From Longitalea arenae (lineage in GTDB: Bacteria; Bacteroidota; Bacteroidia; Chitinophagales; Chitinophagaceae), in assembly GCF_016924755.1 (NCBI RefSeq), contig NZ_JAFFJX010000027.1:1-53463 (forward strand): a stretch of 53,463 nt of DNA. The letters are read 5' to 3'. A program made the position numbers and the translations under genes. Below, one piece after another: positions 22,159-33,948 of this stretch; position 1 is the first letter of the stretch, and each line of letters opens with the position of its first letter. Below the pieces are notes generated by a model. It searched no databases, was not told where the DNA came from, and saw only the letters and a program-made list of their open reading frames with translations.

Positions 22159-24012
22159 TTAATTGGTTTGAGCATTTGTCGGATAGATTGACAGGTTCCC
22201 TGCCGTAGACTCATTTAAGAAGTCAGAATAAACAAATCTTACTAAATCTACTAACCTATTAGGCACAAGCTTGTTTTTAACTAATTCAATACTTTTCCTA
22301 ATCGCACTATATGGTTTATCGTTTTTACTGCCATTCCAAAGGTCTTCTAATGTGTCTTCACATATAAAAATGTTTTCTGAAGGAACAATTATAGAGATTC
22401 TAGAGTTGGCTTTAAAAGGATGAATAGCTGGTAAATCAGCTAATTCCCTATCAGTCTTGCCAAGACGATCAAGGTCGTGTACAACTTTAAATGCAATTCC
22501 GAATTTAGATAACAACCTGCCAACTGCTGGAATCGTCCACTTTCCTCCGCAGGATACAATAGTACAATCTAGAGAGCTTACTACATTTACTCCGCAATAC
22601 TCAAGTAAGGATGGGCAATGTTTAAATATAGCCATTTCTGTGTCACCTTCAACTAAAATCACCTTACTGGCAAAAAAGGCTTCACAAACAGTGGGATGAA
22701 AGTCCAAGGCTGCACGTAGTGCGTCTCTTTCAATTTTTCCTACCTCCGAGCTGTCGAACGGATTTTCTGTAAGTTGTTTTAACGAAATATTGCCAATTGT
22801 TGTACGAGAAAGGATTACTAAGGACTTGGGTACATCTGCGACATTAATAAAAACCGGCGAATGACTTGTACATATTACCTGCCAGTTCTCAGATATAGAA
22901 ATTATGTTGAAAATTTCTTTTAACTTCCTTAGCATTTGGGGATGAAGGTAGAGTTCTGGTTCTTCGTACAAAATAATTGTAGTCCTTGAATTTTCATCGT
23001 TTATCGCCGCTTCATTTTCTCCCACCATTTCCAATAATGAAAAAATGAGGGTTCGTTGAAGACCATGTCCTTGTAAACCAATAGGTGTATCATGTACTCC
23101 ATCAACTATTCTAAGTCCTACACTAGAGCTTATAACTGTATCAATTTCTGGATTATCAAACTTTACATTTGCCTTTGCGTCTATTAACCTACTTAATCTT
23201 TCTGAAAGTTTATTATTGATATCGTTAATCCCTTTAAATCCATCTTCGCTATGTATTCTATCACTTAATGCGGATATAGCTTTAATTATGTTTTCATACT
23301 CTTTTTCGCCTTGTATTTGCGGAAGTATTAATCTTCTCATCAATTCTCCAAAAGCAGACTTGCCTGTTTTGGAATACTTCGACTCGTCTGAAGCATCCTT
23401 TACTGCTGGAATAATTATTATTTTAGGCAGAGCTTGCTGAAGCGAATTATTAAAGGGTATTGATTCTCCAGACCAAGTTGCATTACCTTTTACAATCTTA
23501 TCTGGATACTTATCTCTAATTATCTGTTTAACTTTTTCCTTATTGGCCTTGGTTTTAAATTGAGTAGCAGTTTTAATGTTCATTTCTTGGGCAATTGCCT
23601 TCAATTCTGTACCTAGTTCATTCCATTCGTCTTGCCAACCATTTATTTGTTCTTCCTCCTTAAATGCGAAATATTCAATTGTGATTTTCTTTTTTTCATC
23701 TTCTTCAGTAGAGATTGTTGCAACATATTTTAACCTAAGTTCGTTGTTATAGACCAAAGCACTAATAGCAGGCGAGCTTCTTTCCCATTCTTTCAATTCA
23801 TGAAATGTTCCTTCAATTTCTATAATCGTTTCAGTTCTTAAATAAAATTCTTCCATGTCTGGCTTAACTCCCGTGCATAACAATTCTATTCCTCTTAATA
23901 CTGATGATTTTCCGCAATTATTTTTTCCGATAATTGTAGTTAAATTGTAAGTATCAAATTCAATGTTTTGTAGTCCTCGAAGATTTCGAATTGAAATTTT
24001 TTTAAGCTTCAT
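22159..24012 (-). CDS. OLD-family ATP-dependent endonuclease (AAA ATPase + TOPRIM)
   Basis: This 617-residue protein has an SMC/RecF-like ATPase head with Walker A GKNNCGKS (Lys35) at the N-terminus, Walker B ILYEEPELYLHP in the middle, and a QVICTSHSPVFIN segment. It ends with a TOPRIM nuclease domain beginning VILVEGDTEMAIF, with later acidic residues including HDLDRLGK. This is the layout of overcoming-lysogenization-defect (OLD) nucleases, several of which act in phage defence. No UvrD-like helicase is adjacent, so it looks like a stand-alone class 1 OLD rather than a Gabija system. Base composition is clearly more AT-rich than the flanking glycosidase genes, consistent with horizontal gain. 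Target and trigger are unknown. Confidence 0.85.
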   Translation of the reverse strand: MKLKKISIRNLRGLQNIEFDTYNLTTIIGKNNCGKSSVLRGIELLCTGVKPDMEEFYLRTETIIEIEGTFHELKEWERSSPAISALVYNNELRLKYVATISTEEDEKKKITIEYFAFKEEEQINGWQDEWNELGTELKAIAQEMNIKTATQFKTKANKEKVKQIIRDKYPDKIVKGNATWSGESIPFNNSLQQALPKIIIIPAVKDASDESKYSKTGKSAFGELMRRLILPQIQGEKEYENIIKAISALSDRIHSEDGFKGINDINNKLSERLSRLIDAKANVKFDNPEIDTVISSSVGLRIVDGVHDTPIGLQGHGLQRTLIFSLLEMVGENEAAINDENSRTTIILYEEPELYLHPQMLRKLKEIFNIISISENWQVICTSHSPVFINVADVPKSLVILSRTTIGNISLKQLTENPFDSSEVGKIERDALRAALDFHPTVCEAFFASKVILVEGDTEMAIFKHCPSLLEYCGVNVVSSLDCTIVSCGGKWTIPAVGRLLSKFGIAFKVVHDLDRLGKTDRELADLPAIHPFKANSRISIIVPSENIFICEDTLEDLWNGSKNDKPYSAIRKSIELVKNKLVPNRLVDLVRFVYSDFLNESTAGNLSIYPTNAQTN

Positions 24013-26746: not shown

Positions 26747-26890
26747 GTTTAAGCCTTTTGTGAACGCCAGGCTTTAGGACTTGTTTCGTTTTTTAGTGCT
26801 TCGTTAGCAACAAGCGTGTTAAAAACGGGAATAAGCGTGCAGTGAATTTGATAGGAACTGCGCAAAGGAGGAGAAAAAAATATTTTGCAG

Positions 26891-26910
26891 TCTACTATAA
26901 TTATAGTAGA
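26891..26910. promoter_or_regulatory. Operator palindrome for the BlaI-type repressor
   Basis: tctactataattatagtaga is a perfect 20-bp palindrome located 22 bp before the repressor start codon. An additional half-site (catagtag) lies at 26922-26929. BlaI/MecI proteins bind TACtAnnnTaGTA-like dyads as dimers, so this is the expected autoregulatory operator. It probably also overlaps the promoter, since its centre contains a tataat. Confidence 0.75.
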
Positions 26911-26932
26911 TTTGAATTAAACATAGTAGTTA

Positions 26933-27307
26933 ATGGAAGAGATCACCAAAGCCCAGGAAGAGATCCTGGCCGTTCTATGGGAAATAAATGAAGGCGCCGT
27001 AGCTGATGTGGTGGAGCGCTTGCCGAAGCCCAAACCGGCGTACACGACGGTGGCTACCGTAATAAAGGTGCTGGAGAAAAAAGGGTATGTATCGCACCGG
27101 AAATTCGGGAATATCCATGTGTATTATCCGCTCGTGAGCAAAAAGGCCTATGCAAAGCATATTTTGAAAGATGCGTATAAAGGTCTTTTCAATAATTCCC
27201 TTAACCAGCTGGTCTCTTTTTTTGTAAAAGAAAAAGATGTGTCTGTTACTGAGCTGGAAGAATTGAAAAAACTGATTGACCAGGAGATCAAAAAGCAAAA
27301 GTCCTGA
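26933..27307 (+). CDS. BlaI/MecI/CopY-family transcriptional repressor
   Basis: This 124-residue winged-helix repressor begins with the family signature TKAQEEILAVLWEINEGAVADVV, then PAYTTVATVIKVLEKKGYVSH (recognition helix and wing), and ends with a helical dimerisation tail rich in Lys/Glu. Family members repress their own operon until a membrane M56 peptidase triggers their cleavage. Here such a peptidase starts 2 bp after the stop codon, and a perfect palindrome lies in the promoter region, so the pair forms a classic two-gene relay. The inducing signal is unknown; a beta-lactam is not implied because no beta-lactamase is nearby. Confidence 0.92.
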   Translation: MEEITKAQEEILAVLWEINEGAVADVVERLPKPKPAYTTVATVIKVLEKKGYVSHRKFGNIHVYYPLVSKKAYAKHILKDAYKGLFNNSLNQLVSFFVKEKDVSVTELEELKKLIDQEIKKQKS

Positions 27308-27309
27308 AC

Positions 27310-28836
27310 ATGCAAACATTTATTCAATATATCCTGCTGTCCACCGCTTGTTTAAGCGTCGCATGGTTATTATATAAAGCATTGGTGGAGAAAGGAACGA
27401 TTGTCAAGACCCGGCGGATCTACTTGATCATCGCTATCGTTCTAAGTTTAGCGGCGCCTGTAAGTCCGCTCACCATAAACACGCCCGTCTTTTACAGCGA
27501 ATGGGATAACAGCAGTATAACGGAAGTCGGTAATAATTCAACAGGAGAAGCGACCGGCATGCAGGCCGCAGATACGAAGGTCTTACCAACAAATAAGCAG
27601 TCGCGAACCGAATGGGATGCCAAGGGCATACTCTTTAGCATTTACCTGGCGGTAACGGCTTTTTTTATGATCCGCATTGGCAGGGAACTGTATATTATAA
27701 TGGCCTGTTACAGGCGGTCGACGAAGCAGCGGTTTGGACAATTACAAATAGTATGGAACGACCGGTTCAAAGCATCCTTTTCTTTTTTCCACCTGGTGTT
27801 CCTGAATAAAAAATACCTGCAGGAAAATGAGTTTGATAAAGTGGTGGCGCATGAAAAAGTACATGTTTTACAATATCACTCCATCGATCTTTTGCTTGTG
27901 CAATTGCTGACGGCGCTGATGTGGTTCAATCCATTTGTGTGGAAGATGCGGAATGCGCTGCAACTGGTGCATGAATACCTGGCGGATGAAGGGGTTTTGC
28001 AGAGTGGGATCGACATTGTGGAATACCAGCAGTCGCTGCTTGACCATATCGCCGAATCACAGGTTTTTACTATATCATCTACCTATAAACATTCATTAAT
28101 TAAAAAACGCTTTCTTATGATGTCAGCAAATAAAGCAGCAGCAGTTACGAAGTACCGCGTCTTGTATTTGATCCCGGCCACGGCCATCATGTTATTGGGG
28201 GTGGCCTGTGTGAACGGACAGGCGGTGTCTGAAGCGCCGAAAGTAGTGACCGCAGTAGCGCTTACCAAGGCAAACGTGGTGTATATCGGTATCGAGAACC
28301 CGGTGAACATTTCTGTGTCTGGTTACCGGCCCAACGATATTGAAGTAGCAATCGATAATGGAACAATCAGCGGCGACAGCGGCGAATATATTATCAAACC
28401 TGCCCGGCCGGGTAAGGCGCAGATAACGGTGAAAGCAAAGGGAAGGGTGGTGCAGGAAACTGCATTCAAAGCGAAATTTTTGCCGGCGCCGGTGGTAGCG
28501 CTAACGCCGGCTACGGGCGCCGCGACATTGATCAAAGGCGGACACATCACCAAAGAAGCCTTGCTCACAGCAGGCGGCATTATAGCAACCGTTGAAAATG
28601 CAGATATTGATATTCCCATCAAAGTAGCGTCATTTACGCTAAGTCTGCTTACAAACGGCAATACCGAAAGCAAGTCGGCCGCTGCGCAAACAAGCAGTTT
28701 TTCCGCAGAGCAGGTAAAACTGATCCAGTCGCTGCAGGATGGCCAGCGGATCATTATAGATGATATCGCTGCTACGGGACCCGATGGCAAAGCGCGCAAA
28801 GTACCTGCTTCGATGGTGTTTACGATTGGGAAGTAA
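27310..28836 (+). CDS. BlaR1-like M56 metallopeptidase with GldM-like C-terminal region
   Basis: This 508-residue membrane protein has N-terminal helices at about 5-25, 35-52 and 105-122, then the cytoplasmic zinc-peptidase segment with H181EKVH185 and, 40 residues on, the ligand-bearing VHEYLADEGV. A fourth helix (about 282-300) leads to an extracytoplasmic C-terminal part. In BlaR1 this part is a penicillin-binding sensor. Here, from about residue 320, it instead resembles the C-terminal domains of GldM: VVYIGIENPVNISVSGY, a GKAQITVKAKG strand, LPAPVVALTP, an ITKEALLTAGGIIA helix/strand and a closing IIIDDIAATGPDGKARKVP motif. It should sense an envelope signal and cleave the upstream repressor. 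The GldM likeness is by motif order and needs a profile search. Confidence 0.85.
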   Translation: MQTFIQYILLSTACLSVAWLLYKALVEKGTIVKTRRIYLIIAIVLSLAAPVSPLTINTPVFYSEWDNSSITEVGNNSTGEATGMQAADTKVLPTNKQSRTEWDAKGILFSIYLAVTAFFMIRIGRELYIIMACYRRSTKQRFGQLQIVWNDRFKASFSFFHLVFLNKKYLQENEFDKVVAHEKVHVLQYHSIDLLLVQLLTALMWFNPFVWKMRNALQLVHEYLADEGVLQSGIDIVEYQQSLLDHIAESQVFTISSTYKHSLIKKRFLMMSANKAAAVTKYRVLYLIPATAIMLLGVACVNGQAVSEAPKVVTAVALTKANVVYIGIENPVNISVSGYRPNDIEVAIDNGTISGDSGEYIIKPARPGKAQITVKAKGRVVQETAFKAKFLPAPVVALTPATGAATLIKGGHITKEALLTAGGIIATVENADIDIPIKVASFTLSLLTNGNTESKSAAAQTSSFSAEQVKLIQSLQDGQRIIIDDIAATGPDGKARKVPASMVFTIGK

Positions 28837-28966: not shown

Positions 28967-29593
28967 TTAAGTGATATATAAAGCCCCCGTATAAGTGCTG
29001 TCAGAGATCAGTTTGCCGTCAGCCGATCTAAATGCGATCCATGTTTGAACGTGCTGACCATGAAATTTAGCTACAGGAAGGGCGGCAATACAGGTTCGCC
29101 GGTCTGCCCCGTTCACACTAAAGATGCATTGATTCAAAGCTTCACAATATACTACCAGTACCGCTTTATCATTTTCCCGGGCATTGCCATGGTAGTTGTT
29201 GTTTTCCCAGCTAAATATTACATTTTGTGATGCTGTAGTTGCTTTTTCAGAGCGAACCGGTTCTAACTTACCATGGCATACAGGTATCAGGCTATAATTA
29301 ATATAAAAATCAGGGAAGCTGCCATATATGGCGTTTTTGACGGTGTGCGACATTACAAAGTTTGAGTAGGTCAATTTCTTATTCGCCACTGCGCTTAATG
29401 AGAGCAGCGCTGAAAGGCTGCCGACGAATTTTTGCGCCAGCCCAAACTTTTGCTGATGTGCCATTTGTGCAATGGAAGCGGGTTTGTTTTTACGAACCGG
29501 AGCGCTGCGTAAGCAATATTTCCCTTTATAATAGTAACCAACTACATTACCTAGTTTACCTGTAAAATGAAATACATTTATTTGGCGTGCCAT
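28967..29593 (-). CDS. DUF6266-family protein (paralogue 2)
   Basis: This 208-residue protein of the Bacteroidota DUF6266 family has unknown function. It starts MARQINVFHFTGKLGNVVGYYYKG, the Gly-rich opening of the family, followed by a YCLRSAPV segment, a helical region and two beta-sandwich-like halves. It ends with HVQTWIAFRSADGKLISDSTYTG. The end of the upstream DUF6266 protein is almost superimposable (VVHTWISFMSANGKLLAPSIYTG), so the two are tandem paralogues. The open frame continues upstream to 29746, but that extension reads through hairpin repeats, so ATG 29593 is preferred. No signal peptide is visible. Confidence 0.75.
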   Translation of the reverse strand: MARQINVFHFTGKLGNVVGYYYKGKYCLRSAPVRKNKPASIAQMAHQQKFGLAQKFVGSLSALLSLSAVANKKLTYSNFVMSHTVKNAIYGSFPDFYINYSLIPVCHGKLEPVRSEKATTASQNVIFSWENNNYHGNARENDKAVLVVYCEALNQCIFSVNGADRRTCIAALPVAKFHGQHVQTWIAFRSADGKLISDSTYTGALYIT

Positions 29594-29640
29594 AAAATAA
29601 GTTTTAGGATGTTTAATGAATAATTTTTGTTTAGTCTTTT

Positions 29641-29745
29641 TTAAAATGCCACCCCGGGGCCCTCGGGGTAACATTTTAAATGGTGTGTTGGCGTTTTTTG
29701 CCTTCCCGATACGCATCGGGATCAGTAGCCGGTGATTGGCCGGCA
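29641..29745. repeat. Cluster of three hairpins between DUF6266 paralogues
   Basis: Hairpin 1: ttaaaatg (29641-29648) with cattttaa (29672-29679), enclosing accccg/cggggt. Hairpin 2: tcccgat-acgc-atcggga at about 29704-29721. Hairpin 3: gccgg-tgattg-gccggc-like at about 29728-29744. All lie in the 188-bp gap between two co-oriented paralogues. They could act as terminator or attenuator, or be dispersed repeats. Confidence 0.6.
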
Positions 29746-29781
29746 TGTAATTGTTTCATAGGTGCCGGGGATCTGCGCTGT

Positions 29782-30417
29782 TTACGTCACCGTTACCTCC
29801 CCGGTGTAAATACTGGGGGCGAGTAACTTGCCATTGGCTGACATAAAGCTGATCCAGGTATGCACGACTTTGCCGCTAAATTCCGACACATCGAGTGTGG
29901 CTGTTCCTGCTTCGCGGGTTGAATTGATGAGAAAATTGCACTCATTCAATTCGGGGCAATAAGCGGCCAGGATAGCCTGGTCATTCGCTTTTGCGAGCCT
30001 GACACCGGCGTTGCTGGTCCAGGTGAACTTGATAATGCCCGTAGCATCCGGCGCTACAGCAGGTGTCTTCGCTTTAGGCAATCTGCCCTTGCTAACCGGC
30101 ACTTTGCTGTAGTCGATCTTGAAATCGGGATAATTGCCAGTGATTGCCTCTTTGAGGATGAGTGACTGGGCATAGTTGGTGCCAGTCATTCTGATGGCCT
30201 GATCCCTGAAGCCAAGCTCGAACAGATCATGCATACTTTGTGTAAAGGAAGTGGCTATTTTAAATTTAGCCTGTTGTTCTTCCTGTTCGGGTGATAGGTT
30301 TTTGCTGCGCTTTGTTCCTATGCTGCGTATGTAGGTAACGCCACGCCATTTGCTGCCTATTACCTTTCCGACTTTTCCTGAAATGTCATCCAGGATTCCT
30401 TTTTGTAACCTTGCCAT
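29782..30417 (-). CDS. DUF6266-family protein (paralogue 1)
   Basis: This 211-residue protein of unknown function begins MARLQKGILDDISGKVGKVIG then SKWRGVTYIRSI, the glycine-patterned DUF6266 opening. It continues with a helical stretch and a C-terminal beta-rich half. It shares with the downstream copy the block NYPDFKIDYSKVPVSKGRL (copy 2: SFPDFYINYSLIPVCHGKL) and the final HTWISFMSANGKL motif. There is no signal peptide or membrane segment. The family is frequent in Bacteroidota, and some members sit near mobile or secreted-protein genes, but no role is known. ATG 30417 is the only sensible start. Confidence 0.8.
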   Translation of the reverse strand: MARLQKGILDDISGKVGKVIGSKWRGVTYIRSIGTKRSKNLSPEQEEQQAKFKIATSFTQSMHDLFELGFRDQAIRMTGTNYAQSLILKEAITGNYPDFKIDYSKVPVSKGRLPKAKTPAVAPDATGIIKFTWTSNAGVRLAKANDQAILAAYCPELNECNFLINSTREAGTATLDVSEFSGKVVHTWISFMSANGKLLAPSIYTGEVTVT

Positions 30418-30885: not shown

Positions 30886-33800
30886 TCAAATTGTAGAACC
30901 TTTGGTGTTGAAATGTTTTTGAAAATACAGAACACTTCTTGATGTTTCCCTCTCCACGCTACTGTTTAATACGTCAATCATTTCCTTGTGATCAAACTTA
31001 ATTCCAAGTATAATTCCAAAAAACAGGGCGGTGATCCTGTCAAAATCGTTTGCGGGCTTATTGTACCGGTCTTCAATCGCTTTTTCTAATTGGGGAATTG
31101 CAGATATGAGTGATTTCGGTGTTGTTGGCCGTAGAATATTTGATAAAACCCAGGAGTTAAATCGCCGCACATTGGGTTGTTCTGAGTTAACCCATAACTT
31201 AGCCAAAAGATGAATAAGTTTGTTATTTTGCTTTCGTGGGAAGAGATTGGCTTTAATAGACCACAAAAGGCACCAACAAATTGAGAGATTATATTGTGGA
31301 TCATCCTGTTTAACCAGCTCCATCATACTGTCAAATATCTCATGAATTATTTCACTACGGCGAAGCGTATTCTCTTTTTTGTCATAGGTATATTTGAAAG
31401 CAAAACTCATCATCCCTAAAATGGCCATGCACCTTTTTTCTTTCTGACCATCCTTTAGATCGGATAAGATTTTGACCATCAACATTTCATGATTTTCCGC
31501 ATGCTTGAGCTCAATCATGTAAATATCTGAAATTAATGAACCTACCTTAGTGGCATGTGCGTCCTCATAATTGTCGAAGAAACATTCATTTACTTTCCTT
31601 TTAAAAGTCGTCGCAAACTTGTTTCTTAAAATTATTTCCACATTGTGCCTTTGTCGTGATAAATAGCATTTCGCATACCATTCTATGGCAGTGGCCAAAG
31701 TTTCCGGATTAATTTGAATTTCATTGGCCAGGCAGCTTCCCAGTAATGCTGTCAGCAATTGCCGTCTTAATAGTCTGCCTGTACGATTTAATGCATTGGC
31801 TTTCGATTCCGCTATCAAAAAATCGATCAGCTCTTTGCATTCCCTTTCCTGCAATACCGCCATTAAAGGGATAACCTCTTTCCAGCTTTGCCGGTAAATA
31901 TGTGGTTTAATAATATCAATAACATTTTTTGAATAATCCTTTTGAGGGATAAACTTTTTCACAATTGCTTTTGCTGTCAAATACTCCTGGAAGCTTAAGT
32001 GTAAAAATTCATACACAGGTGTAGTGTTGCCAGAATCGAGGCGTTTATGCCCGGCCATAATCAATAAACTGCTGCGGGATTCCACCCTCTTAATAAATTC
32101 GGAAGGATTTATTTTGGTATAACCCAAAATTTCAGGCAGTTGCGTCCTTGCCTCAATAAGGCAATTGCTGAGTTCATCTGCAGTAATGGATTGTTTCCCC
32201 TCTGTGGTCATCCAATAGGCGACAAAAGCGAGTTGAGGTTCTGTTTCATCAATGTCTAAAATACCATGGCCTTCCACGTTCCAGGTAACCAATAGTAGCT
32301 TGATCATTTCCTGGTATAAGACGCTTCTTTTTGTAGGAAGGTAGCCTGCCCATCTTTTTACGAAAAGCAGGGTCGTGAGCAAAAGCGGATTCTCGGCAAG
32401 CGCTTTTATCCGGGCATCATTTAGGATTATTTCGTTCAGCTTATTGGCCTCCCTGATTGTGTTTTCTGATTCATCGATGATGGCTTTGTGCCATTTTAAA
32501 CTTAATTCTTTTATTTCTTCGCCATTCAGATTCGAGACGGTATAATTTTGGCAATAGGAAGCGAGCGAACCGGCAATAGCCCGGAAGCCGGATTCTCGGG
32601 AAGTAACAATAATGTTTAAAGATGGATATGTAGCAATAAAGGTCCTAAGCTGATTTGCAAAGGCGATCCTGTTTCTATCCTCGGAAATTTCATCTAACCC
32701 ATCAACCAGAAATAAGGCAGTGCCATTTTGTAAAGCTTGAGATACTAATTTTGAGAAACCATCACTACAGGCAGGGATTTCTGCCCTTGCAGGAATACTG
32801 TTAATGATGTCTGTAATACTTTGAGTTACTTTTTCACCCAAATCTCTGCATCGTAAGAAAATGGGGAACCAATTTTTTTCCGGCAGCGCATCATTTATCT
32901 TATCTCTTCTATCTGGAAAAGCATACGCAATGGCAATACGCTTTATTAATGTTGATTTGCCGCCGCCGGGTTTTGCGAGAATAGCAAGTCTAGATTCATT
33001 ACTCAATATGTTTCCAATTCCCTTCCTCTCTACGAATTCATCGTCGTCTTCTTCATCGTTTGAAACCATTTGAATTGGGGATTTGATGAAATGCAAGGGA
33101 ATGAAAATGTTTTCCAGTTTAACTTTTACTGAACCTGCCTCTTTATCGGTTGGCAATCCTTCAAATTGAATTTCACCCAGTTCATTTTCAAGATATTTGA
33201 AGTATTTCTTCCTGGCGTCTGCAATGTGTTGTTTCAGCAATTCAGTAGAAACATCTTTATTAATGATCCTTAATCCATCGAATATCTTATTAGTGGTTTT
33301 GTCTCTTGATAAAATACCATCCGCCAAACTCTTTATTAGTGGTTTTCCCTCCGCATGAATCAGGGCAAAATGGGATGTTTCCTGGCCGTTTGAATCCGAA
33401 TAATAAAGTGTCCAGATCCATCCGTTATCACAGGCCAGCAAGTCATAATAGTTTTGCAACGCTAAGCCTTTGCTTAAATCAGCAAGAGAAGCAACAGCTT
33501 TTTCAATGGGGACCAATATTCTGCCACTGATAAGTTCTTCAACCAGCTTGTCTGGCTTAATTAGGATGACCCTTTTGTTCTCACAATCGTTTTCCTGTTC
33601 AATGGCCGTTTCTTTAAAACCGGACAGGGAAATAAAATACCCATTGACATCGTTTTTCCTGTTCAGTTTATTTTTCTTTAGCTTCTTTTTTTCTGCATCT
33701 AGAACACCTATAAATTTGTTGATATCTGCGCCGCCAATGGCTTCTGCCTGTGCTTTGCATTCAGCAATCGCCATTTTGTTTTCGGTCCTATGTGCTGCTG

Positions 33801-33948
33801 TAAGGTCAATCTCCCTTCCGGATTTGTTAATGTTAAACCTTGGTTGGTCATACCCTAAAACATGGAATAGATCAGCCATTAACCGGCCGAATAGATCGCC
33901 TTTTTTGTTTTGATTATCCTCGAGAATTTCAATCTTTCTTAGTTTCAT
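30886..33948 (-). CDS. NACHT NTPase with N-terminal PD-(D/E)xK nuclease (bacterial NLR-like defence protein)
   Basis: This 1020-residue cytoplasmic protein has three parts. The N-terminal 130 residues form an Mrr-like restriction-endonuclease fold with the catalytic series Asp48 (GREIDL), then Glu63, Lys65 and Gln67 in IAECKAQ. The middle is a NACHT STAND ATPase with Walker A ILAKPGGGKST (Lys331), Walker B-extended ALFLVDGLDEISED near residue 415, sensor-1 LNIIVTSRESGF, and the NACHT winged-helix YEFLHLSFQEYLTA near 640. A long alpha-helical C-terminal part probably recognises the trigger. Bacterial NACHT proteins with nuclease effectors are established anti-phage systems that oligomerise on a phage signal. 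It is a single-gene unit, moderately AT-rich, with no obvious partner. The specific class cannot be assigned from sequence alone. Confidence 0.88.
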   Translation of the reverse strand: MKLRKIEILEDNQNKKGDLFGRLMADLFHVLGYDQPRFNINKSGREIDLTAAHRTENKMAIAECKAQAEAIGGADINKFIGVLDAEKKKLKKNKLNRKNDVNGYFISLSGFKETAIEQENDCENKRVILIKPDKLVEELISGRILVPIEKAVASLADLSKGLALQNYYDLLACDNGWIWTLYYSDSNGQETSHFALIHAEGKPLIKSLADGILSRDKTTNKIFDGLRIINKDVSTELLKQHIADARKKYFKYLENELGEIQFEGLPTDKEAGSVKVKLENIFIPLHFIKSPIQMVSNDEEDDDEFVERKGIGNILSNESRLAILAKPGGGKSTLIKRIAIAYAFPDRRDKINDALPEKNWFPIFLRCRDLGEKVTQSITDIINSIPARAEIPACSDGFSKLVSQALQNGTALFLVDGLDEISEDRNRIAFANQLRTFIATYPSLNIIVTSRESGFRAIAGSLASYCQNYTVSNLNGEEIKELSLKWHKAIIDESENTIREANKLNEIILNDARIKALAENPLLLTTLLFVKRWAGYLPTKRSVLYQEMIKLLLVTWNVEGHGILDIDETEPQLAFVAYWMTTEGKQSITADELSNCLIEARTQLPEILGYTKINPSEFIKRVESRSSLLIMAGHKRLDSGNTTPVYEFLHLSFQEYLTAKAIVKKFIPQKDYSKNVIDIIKPHIYRQSWKEVIPLMAVLQERECKELIDFLIAESKANALNRTGRLLRRQLLTALLGSCLANEIQINPETLATAIEWYAKCYLSRQRHNVEIILRNKFATTFKRKVNECFFDNYEDAHATKVGSLISDIYMIELKHAENHEMLMVKILSDLKDGQKEKRCMAILGMMSFAFKYTYDKKENTLRRSEIIHEIFDSMMELVKQDDPQYNLSICWCLLWSIKANLFPRKQNNKLIHLLAKLWVNSEQPNVRRFNSWVLSNILRPTTPKSLISAIPQLEKAIEDRYNKPANDFDRITALFFGIILGIKFDHKEMIDVLNSSVERETSRSVLYFQKHFNTKGSTI

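Follow-up and report, generated by a model that had tools for sequence, protein, structure and literature searches.

Signalling of the BlaR1 type has been described chiefly in connection with beta-lactam resistance. The repressors MecI and BlaI are cleaved between N101 and F102, and residues 283-284 of BlaR1 are presumably its self-cleavage site. The proteins GldM and PorM form the motor arm of the type 9 secretion system (T9SS). GldM is about 180 Å long, has four domains and dimerises with a strand swap in D3 (PMC5790014). D4 of PorM contacts PorN of the ring (PMC12421860).

A BlaR1-related receptor with GldM domains at the sensor position

The 53,463 nucleotides of Longitalea arenae DNA analysed here (positions 1 to 53,463 of contig NZ_JAFFJX010000027.1; the window) contain a two-gene cassette on the plus strand. 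Its first gene (26933-27307) encodes a BlaI/MecI-type repressor of 124 amino acids (Pfam Penicillinase_R, 3.3e-30; MecI structure 1okr, 2e-11, with alignment), and the second (27310-28836), which starts 2 bases after the stop of the first, encodes a protein of 508 amino acids identified by Pfam, PDB and NCBIfam searches and an AlphaFold2 model as an M56 peptidase fused to GldM D3-D4. Pfam placed Peptidase_M56 at residues 169-270 (27814-28119; 5.8e-12), GldM_3rd at 315-388 (28252-28473; 2.9e-14) and GldM_4th at 407-506 (28528-28827; 3.7e-17), the latter two also being located by PDB sequence search and model comparison. In the PDB sequence search, PorM fragments were the best matches (1.2e-25, residues 313-503), followed by GldM (4.7e-05) and BlaR1 (0.028). 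The initial annotation had described a BlaR1-like M56 peptidase ending in what resembles the C-terminal domain of GldM instead of a penicillin-binding sensor, and had proposed a profile or structure search of the sensor half. That search returned GldM/PorM, with residues 315-506 corresponding to D3-D4, and both parts of the description hold, the peptidase by its Pfam match, HEKVH zinc motif and modelled fold, the sensor by the match of both sequence and AlphaFold2 model to PorM. The presence of a BlaR1-related membrane receptor with GldM D3-D4 at the sensor position is thus confirmed.

The protein is neither a BlaR1 nor a GldM. Pfam and NCBIfam scans found no penicillin-binding domain in it, and the N-terminal transmembrane segment, D1 and D2 of GldM are absent, the match to the NCBI GldM model TIGR03517 being confined to model positions 323-519 of 524 and scoring 102 bits against a cut-off of 180. 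The VIA-align structure listing was occupied by one domain, and other folds missing from it are no evidence. Overall, the cassette is a real, conserved variant of the BlaR1/BlaI pair with a sensor borrowed from the secretion motor, and the protein most likely works like BlaR1 rather than like GldM.

In the AlphaFold2 model, the membrane and zinc-peptidase portions fold like those of BlaR1-type antirepressors. Reading the model by eye, we take helix 1 (residues 2-26; 27313-27387) as TM1, residues 32-51 as TM2, a segment within helix 104-136 as TM3 and helix 278-305 (28141-28224), which runs almost straight into the sensor, as TM4; this topology would place the zinc site in the cytoplasm and D3-D4 in the periplasm. 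The HEKVH zinc motif lies at residues 181-185 (27850-27864), with H221-E222 and A225-D226 further on. In the 55 rows of the fusion alignment (A2), all of which carry the three domains by Pfam, H181, E182, H185, H221, E222, A225 and D226 are invariant. Residues S256-S257 (28075-28080) align with BlaR1 residues 283-284, in a weak match (E 0.056), and are followed by a conserved HSLIKKR; S262 and R267 are invariant and S257 occurs in at least 90% of the same 55 rows. In the repressor, S95-F96 (27215-27220) align in the 1okr comparison with the LN-FV stretch of MecI, which we take to be its cleavage site. Self-cleavage at S256-S257 and repressor cleavage at S95-F96 are putative, proposed from the correspondence of residues. 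Separately, cysteine 300 of the window protein (P0001), in a lipobox-like LGVAC at the end of TM4, is present in at least 90% of the 55 A2 rows and in 81% of the 42 fusion rows used for column counts. It was considered as an internal lipoprotein signal and rejected, since P0027 and P0031 have F at this position and M56 relatives without GldM domains have C, Y, G or S.

The sensor half has retained much of GldM and lost some of it. Counting 53 columns conserved at 70% or more in 48 true GldMs (four of them preceding D3, and with four late fusion rows omitted), the same residue is the commonest, at 50% or more, in 41 columns of 42 fusions, and the commonest residue is identical in 37 of the 53 columns of eight Niastella-type rows. 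The window D3-D4 is 33% identical to the GldM of its host genome, and GldM-conserved residues missing from it include A321, A431, I433 and N451.

Promoter, operator and the search for a regulon

Upstream of the repressor gene the sequence is promoter-like (26884-26914, plus strand), a TTTG box of the -33 type (26884-26887) being separated by 19 bases from a -7-type box TAGATTTG (26907-26914), which together we take to be the Bacteroidota -33/-7 promoter pattern. A perfect 20-bp palindrome, TCTACTATAATTATAGTAGA (26891-26910), fills the gap and overlaps the -7 box, and an extra half-site, ATAGTAG, lies at 26923-26929. The palindrome is the putative operator of the repressor, and the earlier view of a BlaI-type repressor with an operator-like palindrome was borne out by the Penicillinase_R match and by the perfect repeat in the promoter region.

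Scoring 15 fixed positions of the palindrome within the 110 bases before the repressor gene, the best match had 0 mismatches in the window and in L094, L095 and L096, 1 in L097 and L015, 3 in L016, L139 and L144, and 4, possibly by chance, in L141 and L142; L140 is cut by a contig end. Relatives without GldM domains gave 0 mismatches in L021, 1 in L025, 2 in L146, L147 and L017, and 4 to 6 in L019, L020, L028 and L029. Operator-like sites thus occur in some of these relatives too, and the operator follows the repressor, not the GldM sensor.

The initial annotation had suggested looking for other operons with this palindrome. No such regulon emerged, the exact site being found only at the promoter of the cassette. 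Across the window genome, a scan at 18 fixed positions with up to 3 mismatches gave the cassette and a single further site, which lies within a SusD-family gene and has 3 mismatches by this count and 1 when the 15 fixed positions are scored. No site with fewer than 4 mismatches of 15 occurs in the gldKLMN region. Ten genomes of the window's genus were searched at 15 fixed positions with up to 2 mismatches. Sites with 0 mismatches occurred solely at the cassettes of four carriers (G000, G573, G602 and G671), with none in the five non-carriers and none outside cassettes in the ten genomes; the fifth carrier, G627, has 1 mismatch at its cassette. Single-mismatch sites away from the cassette were the SusD-gene site in G000, two in G602 and one in the non-carrier G650, and sites with 2 mismatches were present in all ten genomes. 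The backwards control gave more sites than the palindrome in both searches. The exact-site searches thus gave no sign that the repressor controls further genes; it may still do so through weaker sites or by indirect routes.

The window genome has three further BlaI-M56 pairs, L002 (contig C34), L004 (C11) and L005 (C17), whose palindromes differ, each seen twice by eye: TACGAA..TTCGTA, TGCCTAA..TTTAGGCA and ACTAA..TTAGT, respectively. For the C11 pair, sites with 0 or 1 mismatch were confined to its own promoter, and four more places matched with 2 mismatches. Two more BlaI-type matches lie on contigs C35 and C33.

Distribution of the cassette and history of its sensor

All three domains were found in 101 (query included, counted by eye) of the best 120 of 662 homologues, and the source names among the three-domain homologues listed were Niastella, Bacteroidales, Prolixibacteraceae and Bacteroidota. 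Full-length fusions are rare and scattered. They occurred in 5 of 394 genomes of the window's family, all within its genus (5 of the 10 sampled there), in 1 of 296 genomes sampled evenly across the phylum, namely that of the window (judged by the listed ranges), and in 7 of 344 genomes of the order of G679, which holds L015 (G679, G680, G717, G849, G940, G1008 and G1010). In these large searches scoring covered the top 3 to 5 candidates of each genome; many of the genomes are drafts. In G825 a variant has GldM_3rd in two stretches, without GldM_4th. Among the matches listed in a search of genome contigs, Niastella soli (L014) carries the cassette at 58% identity, and a search of viral contigs found no relative. 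The patchy spread, together with the nesting of Niastella-type proteins among other fusions in the D3-D4 trees, suggests that the cassette may have been transferred between lineages.

A repressor homologue lies upstream, at a distance of a few to about 47 bases, in all 12 readable distinct full-length fusion loci, a count that excludes L164, a fusion fragment at a contig end. When seven loci were compared, the repressor and the fusion were the only genes common to all, and flanking genes were common to three of five Niastella-type loci. Among the neighbours in the window are two DUF6266 genes side by side (28967-29746 and 29782-30417, minus strand); L099 and L100, also Niastella-type loci, have homologues of them close to the cassette. 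An OLD-family AAA ATPase with a TOPRIM domain (22159-24012, minus strand; Pfam OLD-like_TOPRIM 1.5e-14, PADLOC Old 2.5e-78) is a candidate anti-phage nuclease. A protein of 1020 amino acids with Mrr_cat and NACHT domains (30886-33948, minus strand) is by domain make-up an NLR-like defence candidate, for which PADLOC gave just a weak PDC-S02 match (0.00019).

Three D3-D4 trees were built. In the first (77 rows: 58 fusion, 14 GldM, 5 other), L143 and P0103 fell with GldMs and P0105 with fusions. For the second (94 rows: 46 fusion, 48 true GldM), 14 fusion rows, some of them close relatives and some long or divergent branches, were dropped (P0004, P0024, P0028, P0033, P0043, P0047, P0059, P0064, P0072, P0085, P0098, P0102, P0109 and L144), as were the GldMs L124, L126, L128, L130, L131 and L132 and the five other rows; P0104, P0051 and 40 GldMs from the search of the 344 genomes were added. 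Here 42 fusions formed one clade (100/98), and L143, P0103, P0104 and P0105 fell among true GldMs. These four were still on the GldM side in the third tree, which combined all rows used in any tree (119: 60 fusion, 54 GldM, 5 other), with starred support of 100/99 for L143 with the GldM of its own genome, 99/85 for P0105 and weaker values for P0103 and P0104. In that tree P0085 stood on the GldM side only by a long branch, three changes were forced, and the fusion clade was no longer one well-supported branch. The main fusion group includes the D3-D4 of the window protein.

AU tests do not firmly reject a single origin of the fusions (p 0.024 with 77 rows; p 0.063 with 94 rows and all fusions); with 94 rows, uniting the main clade with L143 gave p 0.082 and with P0105 p 0.171. 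L143 paired with the GldM of its own genome (G680) in all three trees (100/97 to 100/99), and its D3-D4 is 61% identical to that GldM and 48% identical to that of L141, the protein closest to it in the peptidase half. A recapture or conversion of D3-D4 from the motor gene is likely for L143 and may have occurred in P0103, P0104 and P0105. The peptidase half of P0103 is sister to P0117, which lacks GldM domains (100/97).

The peptidase-half tree has one clade (100/98) in which 41 fusions are interleaved with 17 proteins filed as non-fusions, L145, which carries D3 only, among them. Other M56 proteins bear different modules by Pfam: Amidase_3 in L005 of the window genome (1.2e-39), TonB_C in L020 (6.6e-14) and CarbopepD_reg_2 in L021 (3e-10). 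These three lie outside the mixed clade, and P0106 and P0113 within it carry PF01520. Since one peptidase scaffold bears different sensor modules, the module of each receptor may hint at its target. D3-D4 also occurs alone or behind other sequence in short non-motor proteins (L174, L175 and L181), and is thus not tied to the motor; L183, judged by GldM match and sequence, is a further short D3-D4 protein outside the motor. Adjacent GldM-like stretches at G538:C1:7670493-7673938 and G573:C3:458175-460580 are matched by the GldM model only in its portion ahead of D3-D4.

A possible link to type 9 secretion and comparison with known systems

An intact gldKLMN operon lies on contig C11 of the window genome, which also has sprA. 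Counting G825 with its D3-only variant, 13 genomes bear a fusion, and nine of them have full-length GldM (G000, G573, G602, G627, G679, G680, G717, G825 and G849). SprA is found in the other four (G940 and G1010, and in part G671 and G1008); G940, G1008 and G1010 gave no full-length GldM match, and G679, with GldM, no SprA match. Since GldM is present in 305 of the 344 genomes of G679's order and in all five non-carriers of the window's genus, this co-occurrence is compatible with a functional link and hardly evidence for it, and we dropped it as such. Held at the inner membrane, D3-D4 would have about half the reach of GldM, so it is unlikely to touch the assembled ring and could instead touch loose ring subunits. 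The proposal of the initial annotation that the pair may watch the T9SS/gliding motor is plausible: the sensor does consist of D3-D4 of GldM, a few relatives appear to have acquired theirs anew from true GldM, and all 13 genomes have GldM or SprA. The near-general presence of GldM, the non-motor D3-D4 proteins and the short reach tell against the proposal or are neutral to it.

As a working model, to which we give somewhat less than an even chance, the cassette would be a self-regulated two-gene switch of the BlaI/BlaR1 type whose swapped sensor gauges loose GldN/GldK and derepresses its own cassette. The repressor would occupy the palindrome of the promoter from which the cassette is expressed, and the four-helix inner-membrane M56 metallopeptidase would keep its zinc site in the cytoplasm and D3-D4 in the periplasm. 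There D3-D4 might meet its partner, most likely loose or unassembled T9SS ring subunits, GldN or GldK. By analogy with BlaR1/BlaI, contact would activate the peptidase, the repressor would be cut near S95-F96 and the cassette would be induced, its visible output being more receptor rather than a broad set of target genes; the additional D3-D4 might conceivably hold or buffer ring subunits. This model is supported by the domains, the folds, the invariant zinc site, the conserved residues of the BlaR1 cleavage region, the repressor in 12 of 12 loci, the cassette-only operator, the retained GldM columns (41 of 53, and 37 of 53 in Niastella-type rows), the four fusions on the GldM side, the intact gldKLMN, GldM or SprA in 13 of 13 fusion genomes and the PorM D4-PorN contact. 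Against it stand the frequency of GldM in genomes without the fusion, the 33% identity to the host GldM, the missing GldM-conserved residues, D3-D4 outside motors, the lack of an operator at gldKLMN, the AU values (0.063 and 0.024), the shifting placement of P0105 and the three fusion genomes without full-length GldM.

The same switch could instead carry D3-D4 as a generic Ig-like periplasmic module that binds another ligand or relays envelope stress, its GldM origin being historical. We regard this as a doubtful but substantial alternative, since D3-D4 occurs outside motors in L174, L175, L181 and L183, related M56 proteins bear amidase, TonB_C or carboxypeptidase-regulatory-like C-terminal modules, the window D3-D4 has drifted from the host GldM, and the buried PorM-PorN surface is reported as not substantially conserved (PMC12635249). 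The apparent recapture from true GldM and the retention of most GldM-conserved columns argue against it. An effector or decoy role seems improbable. Here D3-D4, once induced, would damp T9SS or gliding by taking ring subunits away from GldM or by dimerising with it, and the peptidase would be the self-limiting part. In its favour, the genome has no second exact operator, so that no output beyond the protein itself is visible, and D3 exchanges a strand in GldM dimers (PMC5790014), but invariant active-site residues and an adjacent repressor in every locus read point to signalling, and the reach from the inner membrane would be short. An ordinary beta-lactam-responsive BlaR1/BlaI pair, which the repressor and peptidase families by themselves would suggest, is very hard to reconcile with a protein that has no penicillin-binding domain by Pfam or NCBIfam and whose sensor half is PorM in sequence and model.

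If the T9SS-gauging model is right, a conserved family with T9SS docking domains as sensor would extend BlaR1-type signalling to the monitoring of a secretion machine, and would be a directly testable candidate for T9SS assembly sensing in some Bacteroidota. A broader proposal, which we consider rather unlikely as it stands, is that a class of Bacteroidota M56 receptors uses T9SS ring-docking domains as bait, with an occasional fresh copy from the GldM gene, to gauge how much unassembled ring subunit is available and to set its own level by repressor cleavage, and that such receptors may generally carry a domain taken from the envelope machine under their watch (T9SS, TonB, amidase).

Our literature search, whose coverage of longer result lists was incomplete, found no paper on M56-GldM proteins or their function. 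NCBI entries named automatically as 'GldM family protein' or 'M56 family metallopeptidase', for example P0031 from Niastella, are proteins of the same kind. Bacteroidota M56 proteins with other C-terminal modules share the peptidase family and a nearby BlaI-type repressor, some the same clade and several similar palindromes, but differ in the sensor module, which is amidase, TonB_C or carboxypeptidase-regulatory-like. With GldM/PorM the window protein shares D3-D4, whereas it lacks the N-terminal transmembrane segment, D1 and D2 and is encoded outside the gldKLMN operon, a separate intact copy of which is present. It resembles BlaR1/MecR1 with BlaI/MecI in its M56 peptidase, its membrane and peptidase fold and the adjacent BlaI/MecI-type repressor, and differs from them in that its periplasmic sensor is GldM D3-D4 rather than penicillin-binding and its exact operator is unique in the genome.
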